Source: Chitinophagaceae bacterium
GTDB taxonomy: Bacteria > Bacteroidota > Bacteroidia > Chitinophagales > Chitinophagaceae
Reading direction: 5' to 3'
NCBI GenBank assembly: GCA_019454915.1
Contig: JACFNM010000034.1
Location: 1-19,204 of the forward strand
DNA length: 19,204 nucleotides
Made by a program: the position numbers and the translations under genes
The notes under the pieces: generated by a model
What the model saw: the letters and a program-made list of their open reading frames with translations, nothing else
What the model was told of the DNA's origin: nothing
Databases searched by the model: none
Shown: positions 1 through 16,376 of the stretch, one piece after another
How the letters are laid out: the number at the start of each line of letters is the position of its first letter
How positions within the stretch are numbered: the first letter of the stretch is position 1

Positions 1-1067
1 TGAAGAATGAAGACGACATGGCTCACAATCTGGTGATTACAAAACCAGGCTCCCGGTTGAAGGTGGTCAACGCCGCGATGCAGTTAGCAGAGAAAGGTCC
101 GCAGTTGAATTATGTACCGCCGGGAGAAGATGTGCTCAGGTTTATACCGGTGATTTCCCCCGGTCAGGAGAAGTCCGTTATTTTTGTCGCACCCCAGACT
201 CCGGGTGTCTATCCTTATGTGTGTACGTATCCGGGTCACGGATTTGTAATGTATGGTGCGATGTACGTGATGAAAGAAGGCTATATGCCTGACATTCGGA
301 AGGACACCCATCTGCCTGAAGCCAGGAGAAATGAAGATGCTAAAAATAGAAATGAAAGTATTCAGGAGATTGATGCTCAAAATTTAAGGAACCCAAAATC
401 AGGGAAAGATTCTCTGTCGGAGAAAAAAAAGCAATCAGACGATTCACGGAAAGCCAGTGAAGTCGTTGGTGCCATAAAAAGCCCTCATCCCTACGAGCTT
501 GTACCTCCTTACTGGTATCATACCATGATTGATGGTGTTAGCCCGGCTGTCATAGCAGCCCATCTTCCGCAACGGCTATCGTATGTTTGGGATACAGAAA
601 ATTGCAGGATGAGAAAAGCCTGGAAAGGCGATTTCCTGGATATGAGCGATTTGTGGAAAGGGCATTTTAATGCGTCGGCAAAAATCCTGGGAGATATCTT
701 TTGGGAAGGTGATCATGAATTTCCCATCAGGTTGGGTAGCAAGGATACGAAAACGGTTTCAATTAAATATCTGGGATATCGTCTCGTCAATCAATATCCG
801 GAGTTTCATTACCGGATGGACGATACGGATATTTTTGAATTAATCCGGGAGAAGCCCGATGGTAACGGATTGATCCGATATTTCCGGATTCCTCAGTCAT
901 CAGTACCGGTCCGTTTCTTATTGAACGAAGAAGAGGATTCCATAGAGTATGAATTTTCTGCGGGAAAAAAGAATGGTAATTATCTGGAGCTTAGCCCCCG
1001 GGAGGCGGAATCATTTTCTGTTACGATGACAAGTTATTACCTGGCCTATAAATATAAAAAGAAGTAA
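1..1067 (+). CDS. Azurin-like cupredoxin with uncharacterised C-terminal domain, copy A (5' partial)
   Basis: This is an exported copper protein, probably an electron carrier. The reading frame is open to the window edge, and codons before the first ATG (position 18) align with the paralogue at 11518, so the true start and signal peptide lie outside the window. Counting from that ATG, H3 (in MAHN), C69, H74 and M78 reproduce the azurin spacing C-x4-H-x3-M and the upstream His-Asn, so all four type 1 copper ligands are present. Residues about 100-155 form a highly charged Lys/Glu/Asp/Ser linker that the paralogue lacks. Residues about 160-345 form a second domain (CRMRKAWKGDFLD, WKGH, GYRLVNQYPEFHYRMD), known to me from cytochrome and cupredoxin proteins of Planctomycetes-type clusters but without assigned function. 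An amidohydrolase gene follows after 51 bases. The copper site is secure; the redox partner is inferred. Confidence 0.85.
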   Translation, partial: KNEDDMAHNLVITKPGSRLKVVNAAMQLAEKGPQLNYVPPGEDVLRFIPVISPGQEKSVIFVAPQTPGVYPYVCTYPGHGFVMYGAMYVMKEGYMPDIRKDTHLPEARRNEDAKNRNESIQEIDAQNLRNPKSGKDSLSEKKKQSDDSRKASEVVGAIKSPHPYELVPPYWYHTMIDGVSPAVIAAHLPQRLSYVWDTENCRMRKAWKGDFLDMSDLWKGHFNASAKILGDIFWEGDHEFPIRLGSKDTKTVSIKYLGYRLVNQYPEFHYRMDDTDIFELIREKPDGNGLIRYFRIPQSSVPVRFLLNEEEDSIEYEFSAGKKNGNYLELSPREAESFSVTMTSYYLAYKYKKK

Positions 1068-1118
1068 CCGGGTTGTGAATCATTGATTCTTAACCTCCCA
1101 ATTTGAATAAAGTATTTC

Positions 1119-2078
1119 ATGACAGTAAGATCACATCGAAGGAAATTTATTCAAAATACTGTGCTGGCGGCATCTTCGTTGGCGGTGGGGAAAGAGTTAT
1201 CTGTGCCGTTCGTCGGGGAAGAAAATAGTAATTATCGCAACACTTCACCTTATTCATTGATGCGGGAGGTGATGAGATACCGGAAAATTGACGCTTATGC
1301 CAATGCCTACGCAGATGAAGGAATAGCCCGAAAACAAATGGACTTTGCAGACCGATTGGGCATCGAAAAATTAATTCTGTCTGTACCCATAGCCAGAGAG
1401 ATGGGTAGAACACCGGAAGAAATCAGGAAATATAATGATTTGGTCATCAGGTCAGTTAAAAGATACCCTGAACGGTTGAGAGGGCAATTTACTTTGTCGC
1501 CCTTCTTTTTTAAAGAATCGGTTGATGAAATGAAACGCTGTATAGAAGAGGGAATGGTGGGTTTGAAATTGCACAACCAGTTCAAGATTAATGACCCGGT
1601 TGTGTATCCCGTTATTGAGCAATTTATTCCTTACCGCATGATGATTCATGTACATGGGGAGAGCCAGTTAGGTGTTGGCGGACACAGGATGAAATATGAT
1701 GTTCATAATACACCCACCATTTCCGTGCCTGAGGATTTTGCGGAAGTAGCTAAGCGATATCCGGAAGCGATGTTTCAGTATGCCCATATTGGTGGCGGTG
1801 GAGATTGGGAATATGCCTGTAAAGCGTTTGCAGACTATCCGAATATTTTCGTGGATGTGGGTGGCAGTAATAATGGCGGATATATGGTTGATTTTGCCGT
1901 GGAGACCCTGGGAGAGGATCGCGTATTCTTCGGTACGGACAGCTCTTATTATCAGGCTGTAGGAAATATTTTATCATGCGACCTAACAGTCAGACAAAAA
2001 GAGAAAATATTTTTTGAAAATTATAATACCATTTTAAAAAAATCAGGACGGGGTTTCAGTGATGATAAGAATAATTGA
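1119..2078 (+). CDS. Tat-exported amidohydrolase-2 family protein with altered metal site
   Basis: This is a TIM-barrel protein of the amidohydrolase-2 family (PF04909), whose members hydrolyse or decarboxylate small molecules and lactones. The N-terminus has a twin-arginine motif (HRRKFIQ, residues 6-12) and a hydrophobic stretch ending near residue 23, so export by the Tat system is expected. Visible barrel motifs are GLKLH (148-152), HVHGES (177-182), YAHIGGGGDW (221-230) and FFGTD (270-274), which supply the strand-5 and strand-6 histidines and the strand-8 aspartate. The strand-1 HxH motif that normally follows KIDA is replaced by Y60-A-N62, so the metal site is atypical and activity may be altered or lost. 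The gene lies between the copy A azurin (51 bases) and propeller (39 bases); the second copy of the module has no equivalent. The substrate is unknown; lactone or aldonate chemistry is only a contextual guess. Confidence 0.8.
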   Translation: MTVRSHRRKFIQNTVLAASSLAVGKELSVPFVGEENSNYRNTSPYSLMREVMRYRKIDAYANAYADEGIARKQMDFADRLGIEKLILSVPIAREMGRTPEEIRKYNDLVIRSVKRYPERLRGQFTLSPFFFKESVDEMKRCIEEGMVGLKLHNQFKINDPVVYPVIEQFIPYRMMIHVHGESQLGVGGHRMKYDVHNTPTISVPEDFAEVAKRYPEAMFQYAHIGGGGDWEYACKAFADYPNIFVDVGGSNNGGYMVDFAVETLGEDRVFFGTDSSYYQAVGNILSCDLTVRQKEKIFFENYNTILKKSGRGFSDDKNN

Positions 2079-2117
2079 ATATTCATTTTACAGACGGATT
2101 ATTATAAATACAAGACT

Positions 2118-3644
2118 ATGTACAGAAAAATTGTCGCTACGATAACCATTGTTGTTTTGTGTTTTTCTTATTGTCTGATAGTTAAGGCTCAGGGTACGCA
2201 AAATGGCTCCTATATAGTGGAAACAATCGAAACGCCTGAGGGATTAATCCCCCAGACTGGCGGAATTGATTTTTTGCCGGATGGCAGGTTGGTAGCTTGT
2301 TTTATGCGGGGTGAAGTGATGACTTATCATCCAAAAACAAAGGAATGGAAATTATTTGCCAGAGGTTTGTTGCTTCCGTTGGGAATACATGCGGTGAGTG
2401 ATAGGGAGGTTTTGGTGATGCAGTTTTCAGAACTTACACGGATTAAGGATACGGACGGTGATGGTGAGGGAGATGTATATGAAAGTGCGGCGCATGATTT
2501 CGGAATGTCCGGTAATTATCATGAGTTTAATTACGGTCCGGTTGAGGACCGGGAAGGCAATTTATACTTTGCACTGAATACTGCGTCCTCCGGTGGCGGA
2601 ATTCGTTCAATTGTGAGAGGTAAGTTTAATCGTTGGGGTCGGGATGGAATTGATGGTCATAAAGAAATGTTTTCGGTAGTGCCGTACAGGGGTTGGGTCA
2701 TGCAGTTGACACGAGAAGGGAAATTATTACCCTATGCTTCCGGGTTTCGCTCTCCCAATGGGTTAGGTTATAGCCCTGATGGGCATTTGTATGTAACGGA
2801 TAACCAAAGCGATTGGGTACCTACCAGCGCGTTGTTTGATGTAAAGCTGGGTCGCTTCTACGGCCACCCTGCAAGTCTTGTATGGACGAAAGAATGGGAG
2901 AGCAGAAATCCTTTTGATGCTCAGGTGGAAGAGTTGAACAGGATGAGAACGTTACCCATTGTTCAATTTCCACAGGGTATTATGGCAAATTCCCCTTCTC
3001 AGCCAGTTGTTGATATCACGGAGGGAAAGTTTGGCCCTTTTTTCAATCAGTTGTTTATCGGCGAAATGAATCGTGACCGGATATTACGGGTTATGCTGGA
3101 AGAAGTAGAGGGCGAGCTTCAGGGTGCCTGTGTGCCATTTATGGACGGACATGGATTAACGGTTGGTAACAACCGCCTTGCTTTTGCGGAAGATGGAAGC
3201 CTGTGGATTGGTAAAGTCAGTTTTGGGGGCTGGGTTGGTCAATCCGGTATTCAAAGAATTATTTTTACGGGAGAGCAACCGATGGATGTTTATACCATGA
3301 AGCTTACCGATACCGGGTTTGAATTGACTTTTACTCAACCGGTAGATCCTTCGGCAATAGCTTCACCCGAAAACTTCAGCATCAGGCGTTACCGTTATGA
3401 ATATAAAAAGAAAGATATTAATGAAGGAGTAGATGTCGCTAATCAGACCGATGTAAAACAAATGACAATTACCGGCTTGAAACTCTCAGAAGATGGCAGG
3501 AAGATTTTTATGTCGCTTGATGATTTGCAAGCCGGTTTTATATATGAATTAAAGATGCAGCATATAAAAAGTATTCAGGGTAAAACACTTGAGAATAATC
3601 TTATCTGTTATACACTTAATAAGTTGCTGCCAAAGGATAAATGA
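2118..3644 (+). CDS. Secreted sorbosone-dehydrogenase-like beta-propeller, copy A
   Basis: The protein (508 aa) is predicted to be a six-bladed propeller of the soluble PQQ glucose/sorbosone dehydrogenase superfamily. A type I signal peptide ends near A24-Q25. The propeller occupies residues about 30-385. It contains a calcium-loop-like DTDGDGEGD (111-119), NYHEFNYGP (133-141), GFRSPNG (209-215) and FYGHP (247-251). H135 and R211 align by eye with the catalytic His and Arg of soluble PQQ glucose dehydrogenase, so a quinoprotein oxidoreductase is plausible. Residues about 388-505 form an Ig-like or SwmB-like domain. No CxxCH heme motif is present, so electrons would need an external acceptor, such as the neighbouring azurin. 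It is clearly homologous over its full length to the gene at 12654. A 139-base gap follows before the next gene. Substrate and PQQ binding are inferred. Confidence 0.82.
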   Translation: MYRKIVATITIVVLCFSYCLIVKAQGTQNGSYIVETIETPEGLIPQTGGIDFLPDGRLVACFMRGEVMTYHPKTKEWKLFARGLLLPLGIHAVSDREVLVMQFSELTRIKDTDGDGEGDVYESAAHDFGMSGNYHEFNYGPVEDREGNLYFALNTASSGGGIRSIVRGKFNRWGRDGIDGHKEMFSVVPYRGWVMQLTREGKLLPYASGFRSPNGLGYSPDGHLYVTDNQSDWVPTSALFDVKLGRFYGHPASLVWTKEWESRNPFDAQVEELNRMRTLPIVQFPQGIMANSPSQPVVDITEGKFGPFFNQLFIGEMNRDRILRVMLEEVEGELQGACVPFMDGHGLTVGNNRLAFAEDGSLWIGKVSFGGWVGQSGIQRIIFTGEQPMDVYTMKLTDTGFELTFTQPVDPSAIASPENFSIRRYRYEYKKKDINEGVDVANQTDVKQMTITGLKLSEDGRKIFMSLDDLQAGFIYELKMQHIKSIQGKTLENNLICYTLNKLLPKDK

Positions 3645-3783
3645 TAAGAATAGTGGAATTTCATTCTTTGAGATGATGAACACGTTAGCGGGGTAAAAAA
3701 AGGAACTCATCTATTTTTATAAGTAGTCTGTTTTCCCGCGACCAAAATGAACAGATTTTCTTACCTTAAGAATTGAATCTCTA

Positions 3784-5325
3784 ATGTTAATAATCATGGG
3801 TAAGCAATTTTTTTCGACTGTTTCTGACATGCTGAGATGGATTAAGCCGATGCATTTTTTTATACTGACTATGCTGGTATTCTCACCGGTTTTCGGTATG
3901 GCTCAGCTCAAAGCCGGAGTTGGGAAGATGGATATCACCGACTATCAAAGCGGTCCGGTTAATGATCCCCTGTTTGCCAAGGCTTTGGTATTGGATGACG
4001 GAACGACGAAGATGGTCATTATAACTTTGGATGTAGTGGCTATAGCGGAAATAGGGCCCATTAAGGGAGATTATTTGAACGAAGTACGTTTGGGGATTCA
4101 AAAAGATTTACATATTGATCCGTCCCATGTGCTGGTCAATGTAAGTCACTGCCATGGTATCGTGCGGAGAGATGTGACGTCACTGACCATTGAGGCGGTA
4201 AAGCAGGCAGCCGCTCGTATGGTTCCGGTAAGAGTAGGGGCAGGTAAGGGATTCGAAAACAGAATCATGGAGAACAGGAGATATCTGATGAAGGATGGCA
4301 CTCAGGTGGATGTGCGGCGCGCGTATTCTTTACCTCCTGATGAAGAGATTGCGTCTGTTGGCCCTGTTGATCCGGAGATTGGTATCGTTCGTTTTGACCG
4401 GACAAATGGGAAACCCCTGGCTGTACTATATCAGTTTTCTATGCATCCCATTGAAGGAGTACCCGGCGGCGGGAATACGGCCGATATTACTGGTTTTGCA
4501 TCAAAAGTTATAGAAGACAATCTGGACGGAGCCATGGCTCTTTTTATGCAGGCTTGCGGGGGTGACATCAATCCTATAAACTATAAAAACCTGGAGTCTC
4601 CACCGGACGCAGAACCGTTGGGGAATATGCTGGGCTTGAGCACTTTAAAAGCTTTGCAAAGCATCAAAACAGCTCCCTCCGGAAAGATAAAACTGATTAA
4701 TGAAAAGATGGAACTACCTGTTTCCGATTTTCAAAGGCGCATAGACACTTTGGAAGCCAAAGAATTGCGGCTGCTTCGATCCCTGAAAGGAACGGATATC
4801 AATTTAAAGATGTTCATTCCGCTGCTGATAAAATATCAGTATGCTAAAGAGTATCCTTCATTTTATGCGCAACGCTATCTGACAGATCAACAATTAGGCA
4901 GAAAAGATATGACGCATCTGGATAGGATAAACAGAAAGGACATGGAAAACTACCGAAACAATATCTATATCATGGAGCATTTAACCAGAGTTCAGGAAAA
5001 CCTCCGGCTGGTAAAAATGCATCAGGAAAAATCGGGTGAGATGAAAACTATCGAAGTGGAAATGGTAGCCGTTAAGATCGGCAATATGAAAATGCTTACG
5101 TTTCCCGGTGAATTAACGGTACAAATCGGGCTGAACCTGAAAAAGAAATCACCGTTTGAAAATACCTTTATTACGGGATACACCAATGGATATATCTATT
5201 ATGCGCCTACCGCCGAACAATTAAGAAACACCGGGGAAGCACAGGAAGATTGTGATACCGTCCTCGCACCGGAATGGCAGGAATTGTTTGAAACCAAGGC
5301 GCTTCAGATGTTAAACCGATTATAA
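3784..5325 (+). CDS. Neutral/alkaline ceramidase N-terminal-like hydrolase, exported
   Basis: This is a predicted zinc hydrolase related to the N-terminal domain of neutral/alkaline non-lysosomal ceramidases (PF04734). Family signatures are LKAGVGKMDIT (42-52), LVNVSHCHG (117-125, with H122 and H124), FSMHP (218-222, with H221) and MQACGGDINP (255-264), equivalent to the ceramidase segment around the catalytic serine. That segment has Cys-Gly-Gly here, without an obvious serine. The protein (513 aa) is shorter than true ceramidases, and I see no clear C-terminal Ig-like domain. The first ATG gives an odd N-terminus; M16 (position 3829) gives a better signal peptide, cut near A40-Q41, and is the likelier start. 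The beta-helix gene follows after only 17 bases, suggesting co-transcription. In a sugar-oxidation context, an ester or amide substrate other than ceramide is possible. Confidence 0.75.
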   Translation: MLIIMGKQFFSTVSDMLRWIKPMHFFILTMLVFSPVFGMAQLKAGVGKMDITDYQSGPVNDPLFAKALVLDDGTTKMVIITLDVVAIAEIGPIKGDYLNEVRLGIQKDLHIDPSHVLVNVSHCHGIVRRDVTSLTIEAVKQAAARMVPVRVGAGKGFENRIMENRRYLMKDGTQVDVRRAYSLPPDEEIASVGPVDPEIGIVRFDRTNGKPLAVLYQFSMHPIEGVPGGGNTADITGFASKVIEDNLDGAMALFMQACGGDINPINYKNLESPPDAEPLGNMLGLSTLKALQSIKTAPSGKIKLINEKMELPVSDFQRRIDTLEAKELRLLRSLKGTDINLKMFIPLLIKYQYAKEYPSFYAQRYLTDQQLGRKDMTHLDRINRKDMENYRNNIYIMEHLTRVQENLRLVKMHQEKSGEMKTIEVEMVAVKIGNMKMLTFPGELTVQIGLNLKKKSPFENTFITGYTNGYIYYAPTAEQLRNTGEAQEDCDTVLAPEWQELFETKALQMLNRL

Positions 5326-5342
5326 TACAGCTATTTCACTTT

Positions 5343-6779
5343 ATGCATAGACTATTGACTGGAATTGGTTTTTTCTTCTTTTTTGGAGTGGAACTTTGTT
5401 ATGCTACCAACGTGAAAGATTTTGGTGCCAGGGGAGATGGTATTACGGATGATACACAGGCCATTTCCTTGGCTGTTTCTTCAGCGAAAGACGGCTATCT
5501 CGAATTTCCGAAGGGGGTATATAAAATAACCCGGACAATATGGATTAATCTCATCGAAGACGGGCCATTAGGTATAACGGGTACAGGCGGTAGCGCCCGG
5601 ATCTTAATGAGCGGTGAAGGTCCAGCATTTCTCTTTACCGGCTCGCATCAGGGCACTGCCGATCCGTCAACGGTTACACAGGTTACCGGAGACCGGGAAC
5701 GGATGCCCCTTATTTCATCCCTGGAAATTAAGGGGGAACACGTGAACGCTGATGGCATAGAAATCAGAAATGTGCTCATGCCTGTTTTGAAGAGCGTGTT
5801 GATTCGTGACGTGAGAAATGGAGTTCACTTCACATCCAGAAACCGGAATATTATTATTAGCGATTGCCATATTTATGATGCCCGCGGTATAGGAATATTT
5901 TTGGATAAAGTGAATATCCACCAGATGATCATCAGCAATAGCCATATCAGTTATTGCCGGCTGGGGGGGATTAATATCATCGGTAGTGAAATCAGAAATC
6001 TTCAGATTACCGGAAATGATATAGAATATAATTGCAGCGAAAATGGTAGTCACGCTGCGGATATCCTTATTGATTGTTCTCAGTCAGGTAGTGTGAGAGA
6101 AGGAACGATTTCAGGCAATACCATACAGGCAGTGCCCAGTCCGTCCGGTGCAAATATTCGTTTCGCCGGTTTGGCTACCAATCCGGATAAAATCGGTTTA
6201 TTTAGTATTACCGGTAATCATATCAGTAACCAGCAGGTGAATATTCAATTGGAACATTGTCGTGGGGTCAGCATTACCGGAAATACTTTTATCCGGGGTT
6301 ATGAAAGACATATTGTATTTGATGATTGTAAGAACATAGTATTGACCGGGAACGTATTCGATCATAATGAAGATTATTTTCCGAATGGGTTGAAGGCTTC
6401 CGGAGGAATTACCCTAAACAACAGCAAAGGACTGATGGTATCAGACAATGTGCTGGATGGTTCGGGTACGGAAGAATCCGAAAGTGATTACGCCTCGGTG
6501 AAAATTAAGGACTGTGAAGAAGTCATATTACGCGGAATGATTATAGGGAATAATACCCGGCGTGGAATACATATTGATAACAGCCGCTCTGTGAGAATGA
6601 CGGATTGTATTATTGGTCAAAGGCGCGATCGAAAGCCTGAGTCAATTGCTGTAATGCTGACGGGTAATTGTGATGCTTCTATAGTAAAAGATAATACCAT
6701 TTACGCCAATAAAAAAGAAGCAATAGTAAATACAGCGAATGGTGTCGTAGTGAAGGAAAACACTTTATTAGATTATTAA
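5343..6779 (+). CDS. Secreted right-handed parallel beta-helix protein (pectate lyase 3 superfamily)
   Basis: The N-terminus has a signal peptide with a run of phenylalanines, cut near A21. It is followed by NVKDFGARGDGITDDTQAI (residues 23-41), the hallmark start of the pectate-lyase-3 / GH28-like beta-helix fold (PF12708). Residues about 90-475 then show many short helical turns rich in Asn, Gly and Ile (ITGNDIEYN, ISGNTI, ITGNTFIRG, LTGNVFDHN, VKENTLLDY), as in parallel beta-helices. Proteins of this fold lyse, hydrolyse or epimerise polysaccharides, but I see no convincing catalytic Asp pair or lyase Arg/Lys set, so the reaction is not assigned. The gene begins 17 bases after the ceramidase-like gene and is followed by about 218 bases before the next likely start, which may hold a second promoter. 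A glycan-active or structural role in the envelope is inferred. Confidence 0.82.
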   Translation: MHRLLTGIGFFFFFGVELCYATNVKDFGARGDGITDDTQAISLAVSSAKDGYLEFPKGVYKITRTIWINLIEDGPLGITGTGGSARILMSGEGPAFLFTGSHQGTADPSTVTQVTGDRERMPLISSLEIKGEHVNADGIEIRNVLMPVLKSVLIRDVRNGVHFTSRNRNIIISDCHIYDARGIGIFLDKVNIHQMIISNSHISYCRLGGINIIGSEIRNLQITGNDIEYNCSENGSHAADILIDCSQSGSVREGTISGNTIQAVPSPSGANIRFAGLATNPDKIGLFSITGNHISNQQVNIQLEHCRGVSITGNTFIRGYERHIVFDDCKNIVLTGNVFDHNEDYFPNGLKASGGITLNNSKGLMVSDNVLDGSGTEESESDYASVKIKDCEEVILRGMIIGNNTRRGIHIDNSRSVRMTDCIIGQRRDRKPESIAVMLTGNCDASIVKDNTIYANKKEAIVNTANGVVVKENTLLDY

Positions 6780-6997
6780 CGACCGGAGGCTTAATTTAGA
6801 TAACCGGTAAAGCCCGGCGGATTTTACGTTCGGCCTGTTAAACAAGGAAAGAAGATTGATGCCGGAATAAAATATTCTTGTGAACGCTTTTCAAGTCAGC
6901 GATACTGTAAACCTTTTCATGTAAGAAGTTCCGGTTTTCAGTTGTTTCCTAAGCTACCGTGAAATACCGGTTTAAATATGTAAATAATGAATCCATT

Positions 6998-9900
6998 ATG
7001 CAGTTGAACAAAAAAATATGCTGGTATTTAATGATATTACTTTTAGCAGGTGGGCCGGCATGTAATAACAACGGTAATAAGCAGCAACCCACGAAAAGAA
7101 GTATAGACGATATTTCGGCCAATGAAGATGTAGCGAGATACCTGAAAAATTTTAAAGGACTCGGAGCACTGACGGATTCCAGTTCTCCTACCCCGGCGTT
7201 GGAATCTATGGCTAAATTCAAAGTAACCGGCGATCTGGCTATGGATTTGGTTTTATCAGAGCCCAGAGTAGTTCAACCGGTAGAGATGAGTTTTGATTCC
7301 CGGGGCAGGCTGTGGGTGGTGCAATATTCACAATACCCTTTTCCACAGGGGTTGAAAGTGGTGAGTGTAGATAATTACCTAAGATTCCAATATGATGCTG
7401 TTCCGCTGGCACCACCGGAAGGTGTTAAAGGGGCAGACAAAATCACCATATTTGAAGATACCGATGGCGACGGTGAATACGATAAGTCAACCGACGCCAT
7501 TACAGGCCTTAATATTGCCACCAGCGTAATAACCGGCAGAGGGAAAGTGTGGGTGCTCAATCCTCCTTATCTTCTGGCTTATCCTGATCCGGATAGAGAC
7601 GGAATTCCCAACGGCAATCCGGAAGCAGTACTATCCGGATTTGGTATGGAAGATTTGCATGCCGTAGCCAACAGTCTGCGTTGGGGTCCGGATGGCTGGT
7701 TGTATGGAGGGCAGGGAAGTACCACTACTGCGAATATCAGCTCTTCAGTGACCAAAAATGTATCTTTTTTAGGGCAGGTGATATGGAGATATAATGTGGA
7801 TACTCATGAGTTTGAAGTGTTCGCCGAAGGAGGCGGAAATACATTTAACGTAGAATTCGATAGCAAGGGGAGAGTTTTTTCCGGTAATAACGGATACGAT
7901 CGGGGACCCAATTTTAAGCAGGGCGCATATTATCCCAGAAGTTTGGGTAAGCATGGCGCTTATACCAACCCGTTTACTTTTGGAAATCTCCCGAACATGG
8001 AATTGGTTGGCGAAAAGAAAAGATTTACTCATTCTTTGATTCGGTATGAAGGAGGAAAATTGCCCTCCCGTTTTGAGGGGAAGATGATTGCTGTAAATCC
8101 GCTGCTCCATTATGTACAGCTCACCCGTTTTGAGCCGGATGGATCTACGCTGAAGAATATAGATGAGGAGCGGATTGTGGAAACTAATGACCGTTGGTTT
8201 CGCCCGGTAAACATTAAAGCGGGACCCGATGGCGGAGTTTATATTGCCGATTGGTATGACAGCAGATTATCCAACACCGATCCACGTGATACCTGGAATA
8301 AAACGACCGGAAGAATTTACCGGTTGCGCGGTAAGGAAGGTGTGAAGGGAATTGCTCCTTTCGATTTATCACAATACGATGCGAAAAAATTATTAGAACT
8401 GTTGAAGAGTGAAAACAAGTGGTTTCGCCAACATGCACGCAGAGAGCTGGCAGACAGAAAAGATCAGTCGGTACTACCTGATTTGATATCCATGCTTCAG
8501 TCGAAAAACGGTCAGGATGCACTGGAAGCGCTTTGGGCAATTCATGTCTGCGGTGGATTTAATGACGATATAGCCGGTACTGCCATTCACCATCAGGATC
8601 CATACGTTCGTGAATGGGGGGTGCGCTTATCCGGTGACAAGAAGCAAGTAACACCCAAAATCGGTCAACAGTTAATCCAACTGGCGGCAACAGAAAAAAA
8701 CGCCGAAGTGAGAAGCCAGTTAGCGTGTACCGCAAAAAGATTACCGGCGAAAGATGCTTTTCCAATTATTGAAAACTTATTGAAATTTCATCCGGAGGAT
8801 GCCAAAGATCCCGATATACCTATGCTTATCTGGTGGGCGCTGGAATCAAAAGCAGAAACAGATCGCAGAGGTGTGGTCTCCATGTTCCAGGATCAATCTA
8901 TATGGCGAAGTAAGATCGTTCAGCAGGTATTGCTCAGCCGGATAATGAAGCGCTATATCATAGCGGGAGGTGAAGATAATTTTTCGGTAGCTGCTGAATT
9001 GATTAAAATGGCACCGACAACACAATTGAAGAAGGGTATGGTAAGTGCGGTACACGAAGGATTAGGCGGACAGGATCTGGTGAGCTTATCTCTTCAACTG
9101 CTGAATGTAATTCGCCCCTTCGAATCGGATCTGTTTGGAGGACCTTTGGCTTTAGGTATCCGTAGTGGAGACAGTAAGTCCATTAAGCAGGCATTGACTA
9201 TTATAGGCGATGATCACGCAAGCATAGATAGTCGGCTGACATATACAAAACTATTAAGTGAAGTAAACCAGCCTGAGGCAGTATTTACCCTGATGAATGT
9301 AGTGGAGAGTGCCAGGACTTCTCCTGCACTTAGAGATGTAGCATTACAGGCACTCGGAAGATATGACAGCGCACGAATAGGCACACAGGTTATAAAAGCT
9401 TATCCGGGATTCAGAGGTGATGCAGGTAACCGGATGGCTGCGATAAATCTGTTAGTCAGCAGGCGCGGTTGGACAGAAGAACTGTTAAAAACCATTGATG
9501 AAAAGAAAACGATCAGCAGGGAAGATGTCTCTGATCAGGCGATACACAGAATGCGATTACTGAATGATCCAGAGATTACACAGATAGTTGATCGCCTATG
9601 GCCGAACTCAAAGCCACTTTCTCCTTCAGCCTTGAATGAGGAGATGGTGAAGTATGCGAAGATTTTGAAATCAGGTAAGGGGGATGCGGATAAGGGACGC
9701 ATGATTTATCTGGCTCAATGCGGAATGTGCCATCGGCTTTACGATGCCGGAGGTAACATCGGTCCTGATCTTACAGGATATGAACGAAGCAACCTGAATT
9801 ATTTGTTACAAAATATTGTTGACCCAAATGCTTATATCCGGGAGGGATACGGCGTTTATCAGATAACTACAACCGATGGGCGAACCCTGGAGGGAAAAAT

Positions 9901-10087
9901 GATTTCCCGGCAGGGTGAAATCAGCACCTTTGTACCACCCTTGGGTGGAGCACCGTTCACGTTGAGTAACGCTGAGATCAAAGAAATCAAAGAGCAGCAA
10001 AGATCGGTAATGCCGGAGAGAATTTTGGATCGGTTGAGCGAACAGGAAGTACGGGATTTGTTTGCCTATCTCACCAAAGAAAAATAA
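6998..10087 (+). CDS. PVC-type membrane dehydrogenase lipoprotein: propeller, HEAT-like repeats, C-terminal heme c
   Basis: This large protein (1029 aa from the chosen start) matches the Pirellula/Verrucomicrobium architecture described by TIGR02604 (N-terminal) and TIGR02603 (C-terminal heme domain). The frame extends upstream to a GTG at 6959, but the ATG at 6998 gives a lipoprotein signal with C22 as the lipid-anchored cysteine (GGPAC). Residues about 65-460 form a beta-propeller with FEDTDGDGEYD near 150 and DLHAVANSLRWGPDG near 219, where H221 is a candidate active-site base. Residues about 460-860 are helical HEAT-like repeats. The C-terminal domain has the single heme c motif C908-G-M-C911-H912, then GGNIGPDLTGYE, a possible distal region, and LFAYLTKEK at the end. 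It should pass electrons from the propeller to the heme and onward. It is the only CxxCH protein seen in the cluster. The substrate is unknown; sugar-like is inferred. Confidence 0.88.
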   Translation: MQLNKKICWYLMILLLAGGPACNNNGNKQQPTKRSIDDISANEDVARYLKNFKGLGALTDSSSPTPALESMAKFKVTGDLAMDLVLSEPRVVQPVEMSFDSRGRLWVVQYSQYPFPQGLKVVSVDNYLRFQYDAVPLAPPEGVKGADKITIFEDTDGDGEYDKSTDAITGLNIATSVITGRGKVWVLNPPYLLAYPDPDRDGIPNGNPEAVLSGFGMEDLHAVANSLRWGPDGWLYGGQGSTTTANISSSVTKNVSFLGQVIWRYNVDTHEFEVFAEGGGNTFNVEFDSKGRVFSGNNGYDRGPNFKQGAYYPRSLGKHGAYTNPFTFGNLPNMELVGEKKRFTHSLIRYEGGKLPSRFEGKMIAVNPLLHYVQLTRFEPDGSTLKNIDEERIVETNDRWFRPVNIKAGPDGGVYIADWYDSRLSNTDPRDTWNKTTGRIYRLRGKEGVKGIAPFDLSQYDAKKLLELLKSENKWFRQHARRELADRKDQSVLPDLISMLQSKNGQDALEALWAIHVCGGFNDDIAGTAIHHQDPYVREWGVRLSGDKKQVTPKIGQQLIQLAATEKNAEVRSQLACTAKRLPAKDAFPIIENLLKFHPEDAKDPDIPMLIWWALESKAETDRRGVVSMFQDQSIWRSKIVQQVLLSRIMKRYIIAGGEDNFSVAAELIKMAPTTQLKKGMVSAVHEGLGGQDLVSLSLQLLNVIRPFESDLFGGPLALGIRSGDSKSIKQALTIIGDDHASIDSRLTYTKLLSEVNQPEAVFTLMNVVESARTSPALRDVALQALGRYDSARIGTQVIKAYPGFRGDAGNRMAAINLLVSRRGWTEELLKTIDEKKTISREDVSDQAIHRMRLLNDPEITQIVDRLWPNSKPLSPSALNEEMVKYAKILKSGKGDADKGRMIYLAQCGMCHRLYDAGGNIGPDLTGYERSNLNYLLQNIVDPNAYIREGYGVYQITTTDGRTLEGKMISRQGEISTFVPPLGGAPFTLSNAEIKEIKEQQRSVMPERILDRLSEQEVRDLFAYLTKEK

Positions 10088-10117
10088 AAGAGTATTATCT
10101 AATTTAATCAGAAAACG

Positions 10118-11518
10118 ATGTTGACGCGAAGACAATTATTAAAACAATTAGCGGTAACAGGAGTAGCCGGCATGGTAAACTGGCCGGTTAATGCATATAC
10201 TGCTTTATCAAAAGACATAGGACTCAAAGGAATAGAGATCAGTTCGGCTGATCTGAATTTTGAAAGAGAGCCGCTTGTTCGGCCTTTTGGATTTAAGGGT
10301 GGATATGTTACTGAATTATGGCAGGGTATCAATTTGTTGCAATCATCATCGGGGACCAGGAAAGTAGGCTTATCAACCCAAAGCATACTTTGGTCGGATC
10401 CGGAGATATATTCAGCACACTCTGAAAGTGGAGGGAATGCTCTAATGCTTGCATTGACCGAGTATGCGTTGCAACGGGTAAAAGGACAAAAATTTAAGAG
10501 TCCAATCGAATTACAACAGCAGATTTTAGATGATGTGTATGCCTATGGAGTGAAAATTTCAGGAAATCCGGGATTAAGAAAAACCTTCGTGTTAAACGCT
10601 TTGGTTGGTTTAGACAATGCAGCGTGGATGTTGTATGCGGCAGAGAATGGAATCACCGGGTTTGATGACATGATTCCTGCAGAATATCATTCGGCTCTAT
10701 CTAACCGTCATCAACGTGTGGCGGCCATTCCCCTGATATCTTATAATGTTCCGATGAGTGAATTGCAAGCTTTAACCCGTTCCGGATATTTTATCCTCAA
10801 AATAAAATTAGGACAACCGGGTACCCAAGCGGAAATGCTGCAAAAAGATATTGAACGCATTTCTTCCATCCATAAAGCAATCGGTCAGATCAAAACACCG
10901 GATACCGGAATCGGAAAACCACTTTACTATTTTGATGCAAACGGCCGCTATGAAAAGAAGGAAACGCTATTGAAGCTGATAGACCACATCAAAAAGATAG
11001 GTGCTTTTGATCAGGTGGCAATTATCGAGGAACCTTTTCCGGAAGAAGCGGACATAACGGTGGGTGACATACCATTGCGTATAGCAGCAGATGAGAGCGC
11101 TCATACGACGCAGGATGTTATGGAACGGATACAAATGGGTTATAAAGCTATTGCCTTGAAGCCCATTGCCAAGACATTAAGTATGACGCTGGGTATGGTG
11201 CGCGCAGCCAAGGCGCAGTCTATTCCCTGCTTCTGTGCGGACTTAACCGTGAATCCTATATTAGTGGATTGGAATAAAAATGTCGCTGCACGTCTGGATC
11301 CCTTACCGGGGTTGAATACCGGACTGTTGGAAAGCAACGGAAATCAGAATTATAAGAATTGGTCAGTGATGGAAACCTACCATCCCTATCCGCATGCATC
11401 GTGGAGTAAGGTGGTTAAGGGTGTGTTTAATCTGAGTAAAGAATTTTATGCAAAAAGCGGAGGCATTTTGTCGGATTCGCCGCATTACATGAAAATGTTT
11501 CAAAGAGAAAAGAGTTAA
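10118..11518 (+). CDS. Tat-exported enolase-superfamily enzyme (mandelate racemase/muconate lactonizing type)
   Basis: The protein (466 aa) abstracts a proton next to a carboxylate, if active. A Tat signal (TRRQLLKQLA, residues 3-12) places it outside the cytoplasm, which is unusual because most relatives are cytosolic. The barrel motifs are complete: K228-I-K230 (base), D273-A-N (metal ligand), IIEEP (302-306, metal ligand), AADES (323-327, metal ligand) and K348 (ALKP, second base). The KxK plus Lys pattern is that of the muconate-lactonizing/dipeptide-epimerase branch, but the reaction cannot be assigned; sugar-acid dehydration or epimerisation would suit the neighbouring dehydrogenases. 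It starts 30 bases after the cytochrome gene. Its stop codon overlaps the next start (TAATG, 11516-11520), so translation is likely coupled with the azurin-like gene. The family call is firm and the reaction open. Confidence 0.85.
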   Translation: MLTRRQLLKQLAVTGVAGMVNWPVNAYTALSKDIGLKGIEISSADLNFEREPLVRPFGFKGGYVTELWQGINLLQSSSGTRKVGLSTQSILWSDPEIYSAHSESGGNALMLALTEYALQRVKGQKFKSPIELQQQILDDVYAYGVKISGNPGLRKTFVLNALVGLDNAAWMLYAAENGITGFDDMIPAEYHSALSNRHQRVAAIPLISYNVPMSELQALTRSGYFILKIKLGQPGTQAEMLQKDIERISSIHKAIGQIKTPDTGIGKPLYYFDANGRYEKKETLLKLIDHIKKIGAFDQVAIIEEPFPEEADITVGDIPLRIAADESAHTTQDVMERIQMGYKAIALKPIAKTLSMTLGMVRAAKAQSIPCFCADLTVNPILVDWNKNVAARLDPLPGLNTGLLESNGNQNYKNWSVMETYHPYPHASWSKVVKGVFNLSKEFYAKSGGILSDSPHYMKMFQREKS

Positions 11519-12651
11519 TGGGCAGGAAATCCTATGTTTTGAGTTTTTATCGGTCAGCAACGTTTAATTTACCAGGAGTCGTTTTTCTGCTGAGCTTTTC
11601 GTTTCTACTGACAGGGATAAGTGCGCAGCCGAACAGAGACAGCGCAAAGACTATAACGATTAACGCAATCGGCGGACTACAGTATGATTTGGTGAGATTC
11701 AGCGTAAAGCCGGGTTCAGAGGTGAAGCTGATACTCACCAATAAGGATGATATGAAGCATAATATGTTGATTACCGTCCCGGGAGCAAGGATGGCCGTGG
11801 TCAACGCAGCTTTACAGATGGGGAATATGGGAGAAAAGAAAAGTTATATCCCGGCAATGGATGAAATACTGTGGTCTATTCCGCTGCTTGAACCGGGTGA
11901 GTCCAAAACACTTTCGTTTACCGCTCCGCAAAAAGAGGGTGTGTATCCTTATGTGTGCACTTATCCGGGTCATGGCCAGGTGATGTATGGTGCGATGTAT
12001 GTAACTCGTAAGGAGATGCCTCCCTTGAAGGATGATATTCACGTTCCACCGGTTGCCGGCGCTCATAAGGGTGATGTTCATATCCACGATAACAAAGATT
12101 TTGCGGAGCAAAAAAGAGCAGCCCCTTATTTATATCGGATTTTTCTACCGGGTGCAAGCCCTGCCGCTATCGCCGTACGCCTGTCGGACAGCTTGTCTTA
12201 TTGTTGGGATGCTGGTACCTGCCGGTTGCGTTACGCCTGGTATGGCGGATTCTTAGATAACACGGATATCTGGAAAGGACATCACGATGCTTACGGAACC
12301 ATCATGGGTACTATATTTTATCGTGACAAAACAAACTTTCCTATTCATATAGATCATCCGGGAAATATTCCTGTTGTGCAGTTTAAGGGTTATCGTCTGG
12401 TGAATAAATATCCCGAGTTTCACTATACCCTGGATGGGATAGATGTGTATGAATTGATTAAGCCTGGGGAGAAAGGTGTGGCCCTAATCCGAACCTTCAG
12501 AGTTCCTCAAACAGAAAGGATACTCTGGTTCCTGTTTGATAATGACGATGGTGTCAGCTATCAGGCGTCAAAGGGGGACCGGCAGGGTAACAAAGTAAGG
12601 TTATCACCATCAGATGCAAAGGAGTTCACCATTACTATGGCTAAAAATTAA
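11518..12651 (+). CDS. Azurin-like cupredoxin with uncharacterised C-terminal domain, copy B
   Basis: This is a complete paralogue (377 aa) of the partial protein at the left edge. A signal peptide ends near A36-Q37. The cupredoxin domain spans residues about 44-163, with ligands H81 (MKHN), C147, H152 and M156 in the azurin spacing CTYPGHGQVM; the type 1 copper site looks intact. A histidine-rich linker (residues about 174-194, with HVPP, AHKGD and VHIHD) replaces the charged linker of copy A and might bind metal. Residues about 200-375 hold the same C-terminal domain (CRLRYAWYGGFLD, WKGHHD, GYRLVNKYPEFHY). The start codon overlaps the enolase stop by one base, and the copy B propeller starts two bases after its stop, so the three genes form a tight unit. 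An electron-carrier role for a nearby dehydrogenase is inferred. Confidence 0.88.
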   Translation: MGRKSYVLSFYRSATFNLPGVVFLLSFSFLLTGISAQPNRDSAKTITINAIGGLQYDLVRFSVKPGSEVKLILTNKDDMKHNMLITVPGARMAVVNAALQMGNMGEKKSYIPAMDEILWSIPLLEPGESKTLSFTAPQKEGVYPYVCTYPGHGQVMYGAMYVTRKEMPPLKDDIHVPPVAGAHKGDVHIHDNKDFAEQKRAAPYLYRIFLPGASPAAIAVRLSDSLSYCWDAGTCRLRYAWYGGFLDNTDIWKGHHDAYGTIMGTIFYRDKTNFPIHIDHPGNIPVVQFKGYRLVNKYPEFHYTLDGIDVYELIKPGEKGVALIRTFRVPQTERILWFLFDNDDGVSYQASKGDRQGNKVRLSPSDAKEFTITMAKN

Positions 12652-12653
12652 GC

Positions 12654-14156
12654 ATGAGACGATTTGTTTTCTATATTATTTCTCTTACTATTTATTTTTT
12701 CTCAGGTTGTCATAATAAAAAAGAATCAGTTGAACAACCGACAGATTCTTATATCGTAGAAACGATTTCTACGCCGGAGGGTGTCAAGGCCGAGATTGGA
12801 GCGCTTACCTTTCTTTCAGATGGACGCCTGGTAGTTTGCTTTCTGCGGGGTGAGGTCATGATTTATGATCCCCGTTCTCGAGAGTGGAGTTTGTTTGCCG
12901 AGGGATTACATGAGCCTTTAGGTATTATGGCAATCAGTGCTTCGGAATTCCTGATCATGCAGCGGCCGGAGCTCACCAGAGTGAAAGATACAGATGGAGA
13001 CGGCGTGGCGGATCTTTTCGAAACCGTAACCGATGATTTTGGTATCACCGGAAACTATCATGAATTTAATTACGGGCCCGTAATAGATAAAGAAGGAAAT
13101 ATATTTATTGCATTGAATTCGGGTTCGTCGGGGGGCGATATTCAGCCTGAAGTGAGGGGCAGACTGGACACAACAGGCCGTGATAACCATGGCAAAGAAA
13201 TGTATTCTGTGGTTCCCTACCGCGGCTGGGTGATGAAGCTGACACCTGATGGGCAACTCCTACCTTACGCTTCAGGCTTTCGTTCGCCCAATGGAATTGG
13301 ATTTGATGCAGACGGACATTTATTGGTCACCGAAAATCAGGGCGACTGGGTAGGTACGAGTAAGTTGTTTCATATTCAGGAAGGAAATTTTTATGGCCAT
13401 CCGGGTAGTTTAATATGGAGAAAGGGCTGGAATCGGGGTAATCCGTTTTACTTACCGGTGGAGGCTTTGGATAGTATGCGAACAAGAGCAGCTGTGTTGT
13501 TTCCTCAAAACATTATTGCCAACTCTCCCACCCAGCCTGTTTGTGACATGACGAATGGAAAGTTTGGTCCTTATAGCGGGCAGTTGTTTGTGGGTGAAAT
13601 GAATTCCGGTCGTCTGGTACGGGTGGTGCTGGAAACTGTGAACGGAACGCTTCAGGGGGCCTGCATTCCGTTCATAGATGGTAAAGGATTACGTAAAGGG
13701 ATTAATCGCCTGGCTTTTGCTCCTGATGGTAGTCTGTGGGTGGGGCAGGCTGCTTATGGGTGGGGTGGTGACAATGGCATACAGCGGATAAGATTTACAG
13801 GCAAACAACCGGTAGATATTTACGACATGCATCTGACGGATAAGGGTTTTGACCTTAGTTTCACGCAGGCGTTGGACAAATCCGCTGCTCTTTCCCAAAA
13901 CAACTACCGGTTAAAACACTATTATTACGAGTATCATAAGAAGTATGGCTCTGAGAGGATGGATGAGCAGGAGGTGCTAATAAATAAAATTACCCTTACT
14001 CCGGATGGGAAAAAATTATCGCTAACGATAGATAGTTTAAAAGCCGGTTATGTTTACCAGTTGGATCTTGGCGACCTGCGAACCATTGGTGGTGACACCC
14101 TCGCTAATCACCTGATTTGTTACACCGTGAATCAGTTGCGGGTAGAGAAAGAATGA
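12654..14156 (+). CDS. Sorbosone-dehydrogenase-like beta-propeller lipoprotein, copy B
   Basis: This 500-aa protein is a full-length homologue of the propeller at 2118, very roughly 60% identical in the N-terminal half by eye. Unlike copy A it has a lipoprotein signal (FFSGC, lipid-anchored C19), so the two copies should sit in different places. Conserved features are DTDGDGVAD (112-120), GNYHEFNYGP (133-142, with H136), GFRSPNG (208-214, with R210), ENQGDW (227-232) and FYGHP (246-250), followed by an Ig-like domain at about 384-495. H136 and R210 match the PQQ glucose dehydrogenase active site by alignment in my head. No heme motif is present. It is the last gene of the + strand run; a convergent gene ends 54 bases later, and I see no strong terminator hairpin between them. 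Confidence 0.83.
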   Translation: MRRFVFYIISLTIYFFSGCHNKKESVEQPTDSYIVETISTPEGVKAEIGALTFLSDGRLVVCFLRGEVMIYDPRSREWSLFAEGLHEPLGIMAISASEFLIMQRPELTRVKDTDGDGVADLFETVTDDFGITGNYHEFNYGPVIDKEGNIFIALNSGSSGGDIQPEVRGRLDTTGRDNHGKEMYSVVPYRGWVMKLTPDGQLLPYASGFRSPNGIGFDADGHLLVTENQGDWVGTSKLFHIQEGNFYGHPGSLIWRKGWNRGNPFYLPVEALDSMRTRAAVLFPQNIIANSPTQPVCDMTNGKFGPYSGQLFVGEMNSGRLVRVVLETVNGTLQGACIPFIDGKGLRKGINRLAFAPDGSLWVGQAAYGWGGDNGIQRIRFTGKQPVDIYDMHLTDKGFDLSFTQALDKSAALSQNNYRLKHYYYEYHKKYGSERMDEQEVLINKITLTPDGKKLSLTIDSLKAGYVYQLDLGDLRTIGGDTLANHLICYTVNQLRVEKE

Positions 14157-14210: not shown

Positions 14211-15335
14211 TCACTCCGGCCTCTCATTTAGCGCATAAAGAGCAAAGCTGGCCAGCCAGTGCTCTCCCTCGTATCCGCCATCGGTAATAGCGGGCAGCGA
14301 ATAAGCGAGATGCTTGTCTGCTACTTTCAATAAGTGGCCATATTGTTGGGAAAATTGCTTGGCAAGTTGATAGAAAACCCATGCGCGTGAAAAATTCAGC
14401 CCGTCCAGGTGAACCAGATGGCCATCTGCCCGGTCACTAACCTTAGCTACGCCCATGGAAAAATTTTTATCGGCTAATGTGGGCAGAAATTCTTTGAGCC
14501 ATTGCAGGAACTCTTTTTCCGGCATCACACGCTGCATCAGCGAAGCCTCCTCGAGGCAGGGAGACAGGAAATCAAAACCATCGGGCTCCCAGTTGAGCGG
14601 GCAGCCCTTATCGTTCCTGTATAGTCTGAGTGCGTTCTCTTTGATAGCAGAAATCAATGGCTGATTTTGTGAATGGCTTGCATAATCGTACGCGAAAATC
14701 ATCCCAAAAGCAGAATTGCTATGCATACCCACGCGCAGCGGATAAAGTAATTTGGGAAGGAACTCAAGATAGCGTCTAATCAGCAGATCAGTGAGCGGTT
14801 GAAGGTGGGCGGCCAGTTGTTTTCCGTCCTCGGTGTCCCAGGTATCCAGTTCCATTTGTAATTGTAGTAACCACGCCCATCCGTACATTCTCTCGTACGA
14901 GTATTCCTGAGTCCGATTAAAATAGGCTATCTCCTGACTGATATTTTCAACGCTGATATTTTCCTTCAGTTGGCTGAGGATATTCTCTTTATGTTGAAGC
15001 TCAGGAAAATTCTTTAATAATTTTACCAGTGACCAATGACCATGAACGGCAGAATGCCAGTCGAAGCAGCCGTAAAACGCCGGGTGCAGGGCTTTCGGAC
15101 TCCCCAGGTCTGAAGGCTTGCTCAGTACCTGTCCGGTTTTGTTGGGATATTCCGTTTGCAAACATTTCATAGGAAGGGAGGCGAGTCGGTTTGCCTGTAA
15201 GAGGTTTAAGTGCAAGTTCTGCACATTAACCTCAGTTTCGGTTGCCTCGCTTTGAGTCGCAGGATGGTCGGGCTGATTGCAGGCGTTAAGCCATAATGCG
15301 ATTACGATAACCAGAAAGGACAGACTGTATTTCAT
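14211..15335 (-). CDS. DUF2891 family lipoprotein
   Basis: This is a DUF2891 protein (PF11199), a family of unknown function common in Bacteroidota and Proteobacteria. The frame can be read from a TTG at 15341, but the ATG at 15335 is the better start: it gives a short signal with a lipobox LNAC (lipid-anchored C19) and 374 aa. Conserved stretches are HPAFYGCFDWHSAVHGHW (84-101), RVGMHSNSAFGM (201-212), EPDGFDFLSPCLEEA (250-264), LVHLDGLNFSRAW (307-319) and EGEHWLASFA (356-365). The repeated Trp/His/Asp motifs between helical segments suggest an alpha/alpha-barrel, perhaps carbohydrate-binding or carbohydrate-active, but this is inference. It lies 69 bases downstream of the ROK kinase gene on the same strand, so the two probably share a transcript. 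Envelope location beside a sugar kinase and a SusC supports a sugar-related role. Confidence 0.85.
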   Translation of the reverse strand: MKYSLSFLVIVIALWLNACNQPDHPATQSEATETEVNVQNLHLNLLQANRLASLPMKCLQTEYPNKTGQVLSKPSDLGSPKALHPAFYGCFDWHSAVHGHWSLVKLLKNFPELQHKENILSQLKENISVENISQEIAYFNRTQEYSYERMYGWAWLLQLQMELDTWDTEDGKQLAAHLQPLTDLLIRRYLEFLPKLLYPLRVGMHSNSAFGMIFAYDYASHSQNQPLISAIKENALRLYRNDKGCPLNWEPDGFDFLSPCLEEASLMQRVMPEKEFLQWLKEFLPTLADKNFSMGVAKVSDRADGHLVHLDGLNFSRAWVFYQLAKQFSQQYGHLLKVADKHLAYSLPAITDGGYEGEHWLASFALYALNERPE

Positions 15336-15404
15336 TGCCAATAAAAATAAGCAATATTCATTTCTTCATTGAAAACAGTGTCTTGTACTTTCGTATTTCT
15401 ACAT

Positions 15405-16376
15405 TCAATCATTGAGCAGGTTAGCAGCTACCGAAAGCGCCGCATAGGATCCGATGTCTTCCCCTAATTGAGAGGGGAGTATCCGGCAGGCTTTGCGCGC
15501 TTGTGGTAATGCTTCTTTTCCCAAAGCATCCAGCATATAAGATTCAAGCAAGGTTCTACATCTTGTATAGATGCCACCCATGACGATTAATTCCGGATTC
15601 AGTACATCAATGAGGATGGAGAGACCCTGACCCAGTTTAGTCCCCGAGATCCGGAAGACTTCTTTTGCCAGTTCGTCTCCCTGAAGTGCTGCCTCTGCTA
15701 TTTTCAGGGTAGTTAGTGTATTCAGTTCTTCCGGAGGACACCAGGTATAAATAATACCCATTTGTGCTTTTTCTTTGAGTAGGGATTGCCCGAGTTGAGT
15801 AATACCGCCACCACTGCAAAAGCCTTCAAAAGAGCCGGATTTACCATATCCTACCGGACCAAAATCCGTTAACCGGATATGGCCGATTTCACCGGCGTTA
15901 TCATTGGTTCCTGAATATAGGGCGCCGTTCAGTATCAATCCCGCACCCAGACCGGTTCCAAAAGTCAGGAAGATCATATTATCGGTACCCTGACCTGCAC
16001 CAAATTTCCATTCTGCCAGCGCACAGGCATTGGCATCATTTTGTAAACCGGTTGCTATATTAAATTCGTTTTTAATTTTTTCAACGATAGGAATATTATC
16101 CCATCCTGGTAAATTCGGGGGTGATTGTATGAATCCGGTTTTACTGTTGAGTGGTCCGCCGCAACTGATGCCGATGCCTGAGATATCTTCAGCTTGAAGT
16201 TCATGCGTTCTAAGAACTTTCCAAATTGTAGAAATGATTTGACGAATTGTCTCTTCGGCTTTATTTGTCGTAAATCTGATATCCTCCAGTATTTGCAGTT
16301 TCGATGACGCTGTCTGTCCAAGAACGATAGATGTTTTTGTACCTCCGATATCAATACCTATTAATTTTCTGTTCAT
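15405..16376 (-). CDS. ROK-family sugar kinase lacking the zinc-binding cysteines
   Basis: This cytoplasmic protein (323 aa) should phosphorylate a hexose or related sugar with ATP. The frame runs on upstream to 16478, but the ATG at 16376 places the phosphate-binding motif GIDIGGTKT at residues 7-15, as is normal for ROK kinases, and is the start I chose. There is no N-terminal helix-turn-helix, so it is a kinase-type and not a repressor-type ROK protein. Other motifs are LQNDANACALAEW (111-123, with D114 the likely catalytic base), LTFGTGLGAG (137-146) and GEIGH (162-166, with the conserved His). The usual CxCGxxGCxE zinc motif reads V175-G-Y-G-K-S-G-S-F-E184, so all three cysteines are missing, a variant I believe occurs in one ROK subgroup. 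The DUF2891 gene follows in a likely operon. Glucokinase-like activity is possible but unproven. Confidence 0.9.
   Translation of the reverse strand: MNRKLIGIDIGGTKTSIVLGQTASSKLQILEDIRFTTNKAEETIRQIISTIWKVLRTHELQAEDISGIGISCGGPLNSKTGFIQSPPNLPGWDNIPIVEKIKNEFNIATGLQNDANACALAEWKFGAGQGTDNMIFLTFGTGLGAGLILNGALYSGTNDNAGEIGHIRLTDFGPVGYGKSGSFEGFCSGGGITQLGQSLLKEKAQMGIIYTWCPPEELNTLTTLKIAEAALQGDELAKEVFRISGTKLGQGLSILIDVLNPELIVMGGIYTRCRTLLESYMLDALGKEALPQARKACRILPSQLGEDIGSYAALSVAANLLND

Follow-up and report, generated by a model that had tools for sequence, protein, structure and literature searches.

We analyzed a 19,204-nucleotide stretch of DNA (the window) from a Chitinophagaceae bacterium (assembly GCA_019454915.1, contig JACFNM010000034.1) and found that its core consists of two copies of a small cassette, in which an azurin-DUF6797 gene (A) is followed by the gene for a propeller protein (P). 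In the Bacteroidota genomes compared, A and P are encoded together and, as judged from their sequence distances, diverge together. With a probability of roughly two in three, we predict that this core is a two-subunit exported oxidoreductase, with P being the dehydrogenase that reduces A. A first-pass annotation had proposed that nine consecutive genes of the window form one periplasmic sugar-oxidation pathway. That reading stands insofar as the cassette combines a sugar dehydrogenase-like propeller with a copper carrier, but its nine-gene scope does not: the conserved core revealed by gene-order comparison is A then P, and it is this pair, not the nine-gene block, for which the association exceeds chance. 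The two cassettes of the window are A1-B-P1 and E-A2-P2, accompanied by a third propeller protein, Y. Their A and P genes are as follows.

3 to 1067, plus strand: A1, azurin-DUF6797 protein (PF00127, PF20601, copper-ligand motif), proposed electron acceptor of cassette 1, 5' end missing at the contig edge.
2118 to 3644, plus strand: P1, propeller and partner of A1, 56% identical to P2.
11518 to 12651, plus strand: A2, azurin-DUF6797 protein (PF00127), proposed electron acceptor of cassette 2.
12654 to 14156, plus strand: P2, propeller lipoprotein (DUF7133, AlphaFold2 model), dehydrogenase candidate of cassette 2.

Full-length relatives of A were collected at 42 loci in 39 genomes (counting L007, L008, and L010 as distinct). 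These loci were L007, L008, L010, G265, G338, G184, G057, and G226, plus 34 from one other family, in which the cassette is present in 68 of 200 genomes; the 34 were chosen from the 72 places found there so as to span the genera, with no more than seven from any one genus. L009 (on the same contig as G265), the azurin-only matches of the order survey, L005, and L006 were excluded, and L053 was used for open reading frames only. A preceded P on the same strand in all 44 copies, with a spacing of no more than about 0.3 kb in 43; the exception was G265, where B lies between A and P and the A1-B-P1 order of the window is repeated. Because the loci are related, these counts do not represent independent events. 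The reverse test gave a consistent picture: in 12 carrier genomes, all 18 P relatives with at least 54% identity were members of A-P pairs, and the remaining P relatives showed at most 46% identity and had open frames of at least 632 amino acids. Among 46 cassettes, including the window's two, A and P distances were correlated with an r value of 0.88, whereas none of 2000 permutations exceeded 0.21. A common species history would likewise raise this correlation, and partner exchange is the sharper test; exchanging the P partners lowered the A-P fit in six of six two-cassette genomes, by 0.007 to 0.084. In 33 of the 46 cassettes, the nearest relative by A was also the nearest by P.

Both A proteins scored above the Pfam cutoff for azurin (PF00127; 27.5 bits for A1 and 38.1 for A2 versus 21.2), which bears out the earlier description of two azurin-like proteins. 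That description nevertheless overlooked a second domain in both, DUF6797 (PF20601), for which A1 lies above the cutoff of 24.9 (27.2 bits) and A2 below it (21.5 bits). Structural comparison of the azurin half of A, the part that our fold tables cover, returned the azurin fold. Type 1 copper is liganded by His, Cys, His, and Met; H81, C147, H152, and M156 were invariant in 30 of 30 A sequences, and the type 1 motif was present in all 46 A copies. A falls below the NCBIfam azurin equivalog TIGR02695 (37.8 and 32.7 versus 105.1 bits). A1 and A2 are 44% identical, and the window's genome holds six azurin-family matches. Azurin-DUF6797-like chains joined to LamG domains were also seen (P0245-P0297 and others); the organisms, where listed, were Verrucomicrobia (Chthoniobacter-type or Opitutales), which shows that the acceptor module extends beyond Bacteroidota.

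P is predicted to adopt the propeller fold of the GSDH/sGDH family. For the AlphaFold2 model of P2 (pLDDT, 88.2; pTM, 0.88), the 16 best listed structural matches were all sugar dehydrogenases of the pyrroloquinoline quinone (PQQ) type or members of AA12. P2 exceeded the DUF7133 cutoff of 27 with 38.4 bits, while P1 fell just short at 25.0, and neither HEAT nor heme was detected in P by family and motif scans. Nine residues (H136, E137, R210, S211, N228, Q229, W232, M316, and R352) were invariant in all 46 P copies. When PDB sequences were searched with the propeller profile, most of the matches were designed Pizza propellers, aligned on one 24-residue repeat, and the result was left unused. 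Some P relatives already carry the annotation "PQQ-dependent sugar dehydrogenase," and many propellers of the DUF7133 type bear this label or are unnamed.

The relationship between propeller and acceptor is also apparent from chains in which they are joined. P0192 is a single azurin-DUF6797-propeller chain, A and P lie within one 838-codon frame at L085, and the window's genome encodes a 685-amino-acid propeller-azurin chain. Chains combining azurin or cupredoxin with DUF7133 numbered at least nine at 829 to 878 amino acids, with six more at 675 to 696, among the best 120 of 234 matches; among the best 120 of 3062, at least four P2 relatives are labeled cytochrome c. Elsewhere in Bacteroidota, DUF6797 is part of long chains: at the DUF6797 loci (20 of 28 places), BLAST identified a P-like propeller in 19, and CxxCH was found in 15, a count limited to the portion of the frame covered by the available DNA. 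Four of five Pfam-scanned DUF6797 chains consist of cytochrome c, then DUF6797, then the propeller (recognized by BLAST to P, its Pfam score being below the cutoff); the fifth, L067, showed DUF6797 only. To judge from these architectures, the same propeller takes either heme c or blue copper as its partner, which may precede or follow it and may be fused to it or encoded separately. Since natural fusions occur with each, azurin and cytochrome c appear to interchange as its partner, and the simplest reading of this interchange is that the propeller would deliver electrons to whichever partner is present. Two more elaborate arrangements were observed. In the window's genome, L052 (G000:C265, 7915-13543) encodes a 776-amino-acid DUF7133-cytochrome c chain immediately followed by a 1102-amino-acid GDSL-DUF7133-HEAT-azurin chain. 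At L122:15413-19237, a single frame comprises ThuA, DUF7133, CARDB, and azurin (HEAT being below the cutoff), close to an E gene and a cytochrome c-propeller relative.

The remaining features of the window are as follows.

1119 to 2078, plus strand: B, Amidohydro_2 protein (PF04909) between A1 and P1, with a twin-arginine start (RRKFI) and YxN in place of HxH.
3784 to 5325, plus strand: C, ceramidase-like hydrolase (PF04734 below cutoff).
5343 to 6779, plus strand: H, right-handed beta-helix protein, pectate lyase-like (PF13229, PF05048, and PF12708 above cutoff).
6959 to 10087, plus strand (likely start, 6998): Y, lipoprotein-like chain of a DUF7133 propeller, HEAT, and cytochrome c (TIGR02604, TIGR02603, CGMCH).
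10118 to 11518, plus strand: E, enolase-superfamily enzyme (PF13378) with a twin-arginine start.
16902 to 19202, plus strand: SusC-like TonB receptor, 3' end missing; a 77% relative adjoins both cassettes of G265.

Y is, as had been claimed, a propeller/heme c protein, and it looks like a lipoprotein. It exceeds the cutoffs for TIGR02604 (238.8 versus 122.2) and TIGR02603 (123 versus 68.15), combines DUF7133, HEAT, and cytochrome c, and has one CxxCH, CGMCH at residue 921. A relative of Y was found at 6 of the 42 A-P loci.

E likewise belongs where it had been placed, in the enolase superfamily (MR_MLE_C; 38.3 versus 29.4 bits), and its residues K228, K230, D273, E304, D325, and K348 were invariant in eight of eight sequences. 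MLE-type members of this superfamily use a KxK motif, three acidic metal ligands, and a second Lys; the predicted lysine-type active site of E also fits racemases. E occurs at 7 of the 42 A-P loci, on the A-P strand in all seven. Matches to E were found at 86 places in 76 of 200 genomes, and A-P lay within about 10 kb at 4 of these places. E is thus frequent apart from A-P, which rules it out as an obligate partner; its association with the cassette is facultative. At 7 of 30 E loci away from A-P, a same-strand propeller dehydrogenase lay within 1.5 kb. Six of these were cytochrome c-propeller relatives, with cytochrome c confirmed by Pfam in both that were scanned (L126 and L127), and one was a GSDH (184.7 versus 25 bits). 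An Nramp-SDR-DHDPS-E operon (the DHDPS labels being below the Pfam cutoff) accompanies A-P in L086, L088, and G226 (L049, L050) and accompanies GSDH in L120; it was found without a propeller in L131 and L147, L130 being incomplete, and L115 has Nramp-SDR-DHDPS with A-P and no E. That a true sugar dehydrogenase can occupy the place of A-P is our best hint at the reaction. A dehydrogenase with a lactonase-, dehydratase-, and aldolase-like set would resemble nonphosphorylative sugar oxidation.

The case of B is less straightforward. It exceeds the Amidohydro_2 cutoff (63.4 versus 26.4 bits), which supports the earlier label of amidohydrolase-like protein. Metal-dependent members of the amidohydrolase superfamily carry an HxH metal motif at the first strand; B has IDAYANA (YxN) instead, with D58, H179, and H223 invariant in 10 of 10 sequences. 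The predicted metal site is therefore incomplete or altered, and we ruled out a standard metal amidohydrolase. Relatives of B occur at 5 of the 42 A-P loci and relatives of SusC at 18. Other neighbors include a xylose isomerase-like protein and a DegT-type aminotransferase (both with twin-arginine signals), a UxuA-like protein, and a GFO/IDH protein, and at L008 the cassette is followed by an alpha-L-rhamnosidase on the opposite strand. The DegT-type pyridoxal phosphate aminotransferase with a twin-arginine start is encoded at L049:15221-16606, beside A-P in G226, and DegT cluster mates occur in G184, G265, L084, and L091; an exported aminotransferase of this kind seems unusual.

A number of observations weigh against reading the A-P pair as a sugar-oxidizing oxidoreductase. 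The cassette is patchy: of 396 genomes of the order, 6 carry full-length A, as do 4 of the 395 genomes in a class-wide sample. E, B, and Y are only facultative neighbors, and at 23 of the 30 E loci sampled away from A-P, no same-strand propeller dehydrogenase was present within 1.5 kb. P2 narrowly misses the GSDH cutoff (PF07995; 24.7 versus 25), and P1 gave no PF07995 match at 0.001 in Pfam. The pocket seems altered as well. The PQQ-contact residues of sGDH are H144, R228, N229, K377, R406, and R408. In the profile alignment, N229 is replaced by S and K377 by D or N in 46 of 46 P copies, nothing in P corresponds to R408, the match to H144 is shifted by one, and R228 and R406 are matched; a weaker single-sequence profile comparison with GSDH (probability, 76%; E value, 2e-5) places K377 and the C-terminal arginines differently from that alignment. 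A search of 206 genomes (6 plus 200) that was confined to pqqC, leaving aside PqqU and the remaining PQQ genes, found no copy; its weight comes from the positive control pSymB. According to one report (PMC12124388), all 206 Bacteroidota found to have the importer PqqU lacked PQQ synthesis genes. Scavenging of PQQ by the cassette's carriers is possible. Nonetheless, given the apparent replacement of N229 and K377 and the negative pqqC search, we dropped the notion of P as a settled "PQQ enzyme." PQQ is a doubtful cofactor for P, and the earlier term "quinoprotein-like propellers" survives for the predicted sugar dehydrogenase-type fold, less so for the cofactor.

Propellers of this fold also include lactonases and the nonenzymatic HHIP. 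One alternative, then, is that P is a lactonase or another six-bladed-propeller hydrolase and that the azurin buffers copper or serves another enzyme. We consider this unlikely: dehydrogenases fill the 16 best listed matches to the model, and the propeller occurs fused to electron carriers of two kinds.

A second alternative retains the nine genes as one periplasmic pathway, including C and H and peculiar to this lineage. The window does contain, as claimed, nine same-strand open reading frames that fill positions 3 to 14156, and in same-genus G265 a single stretch contains A1, B, P1, E, A2, P2, and Y together with a 77% SusC. C and H, however, had no match in the 40 kb of G265 examined, and relatives of C and H were found at none and two (L007 and L010), respectively, of the 42 A-P loci. 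The genes are closely spaced for the most part, the stop-to-start gaps from A1 to P2 being, in order, 51, 39, 139, 17, 179, 30, -1, and 2 bp, but C-H is set off on its two sides by the gaps of 139 and 179 bp. The gap sizes thus divide the set into three tightly spaced groups, A1-B-P1, C-H, and Y-E-A2-P2. H is a beta-helix protein, as had been noted (87.4 versus 25.9 bits). The ceramidase-like label of C rests on a match to neutral ceramidase PF04734 that, at 24.0, remains below the cutoff of 32.1, and a sequence search for solved relatives yielded none below an E value of 0.4, only chance matches. C and H do not accompany the cassettes from genome to genome and are probably bystanders or species-specific additions. 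A conserved nine-gene unit is ruled out, and a pathway of all nine confined to this lineage is quite improbable. Least credible is the idea that P is a noncatalytic scaffold or sugar-binding partner that places azurin for another dehydrogenase, as the nine invariant P residues, together with the ability of GSDH to occupy the neighboring position, speak against it.

The window is the whole of contig C204 of an 802-contig assembly (95.5% complete), and because A1 lies at the contig edge, its 5' end is cut off. No tRNA was found in the window, and no Rfam family reached the gathering score. Minus-strand DUF2891 and ROK genes (14211-16478) lie between the cassettes and SusC, and DUF2891 relatives also occur near A-P in L109 and L110. 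Export signals, read from a motif scan plus visual inspection of N termini, were as had been reported for every visible N terminus: according to the scan, B (RRKFI) and E (RRQLL) have twin-arginine motifs and P2 has a lipobox (FSGC), and inspection by eye suggested a lipoprotein-type Cys in Y and Sec-like leaders on P1, C, H, and A2. The N termini of the window proteins therefore fit the predicted export.

Taken as an oxidoreductase, the A-P cassette might work as follows. In the periplasm, P would oxidize a sugar or a compound derived from one, and the electrons would pass to the copper of A. The two proteins may be docked by DUF6797, which in the fused forms lies between the acceptor and the propeller. 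From A, the electrons would move on to heme c, that of Y or of another cytochrome, and so to the respiratory chain, while exported sugar-type enzymes beside the cassette, here E and B, would process the product. The two diverged cassettes of the window probably serve two substrates or two steps. Azurin has been reported as an electron acceptor of quinoproteins (PMC12124388). A bolder and tentative proposal, which we hold to be possible but doubtful as a whole, is that of a new class of copper-linked periplasmic dehydrogenase. Here, P would operate without PQQ bound in the known way (with another cofactor or with metal alone), and azurin- and cytochrome c-DUF6797 would be interchangeable plugs on one propeller across Bacteroidota, with azurin-DUF6797 present in Verrucomicrobia also.

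A fixed azurin partner would turn these propellers into a defined two-protein system, amenable to purification and assay, and would point to a role for DUF6797. It would further account, if true, for the retention of several azurin-family genes in such genomes (six matches here) and would link exported sugar-acid-type enzymes to respiration. In the open-licence PubMed Central literature, we recognized no paper on the A-P pair and found none mentioning DUF6797, DUF7133, or "PVC-type heme-binding," and hence no role for them there. A 2021 survey of azurin genes (PMC8779525) reported that in its sample the associated genes are "always different from each other," except in two Flavobacteriaceae; the fixed propeller partner seen here is a further exception to this pattern.

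Among known systems, the PQQ sugar dehydrogenases (sGDH, Asd, GSDH PF07995, and fungal AA12) share with P the predicted propeller fold; in the profile alignment, P also has counterparts of R228 and of one of R406/R408 and a His within one position of H144. Unlike them, P has S for N229, D or N for K377, and no R408 in that alignment, lies just below the PF07995 cutoff, and has both a fixed azurin-DUF6797 partner and additional C-terminal sequence beyond about residue 385 of the model. The PVC-type propeller/heme proteins (TIGR02604, TIGR02603, and DUF7133) are represented by Y, which exceeds their cutoffs, and the same propeller has short relatives in P1 and P2; P, in contrast, matches neither HEAT nor heme, and the acceptor proposed for it is encoded separately, as azurin-DUF6797. 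Quinohemoproteins such as the AA12 pyranose dehydrogenase with a fused cytochrome offer a precedent for a dehydrogenase with a built-in electron-acceptor domain (PMC4332668), although the proposed A-P acceptor is blue copper, mostly a separate gene, and accompanied by a DUF6797 segment. No paper on gene fusion in azurin-using quinoproteins was found in open-licence PubMed Central. Electron transfer from a periplasmic quinone enzyme to azurin is known for aromatic amine dehydrogenase (complex 2h3x, by its title), and PMC12124388 names azurin as a quinoprotein acceptor. The aromatic amine dehydrogenase system employs a different enzyme, and it has no DUF6797. Set against all of these, the fixed azurin-DUF6797 partner, its apparent exchange for heme c, and what seems to be an altered pocket look new.

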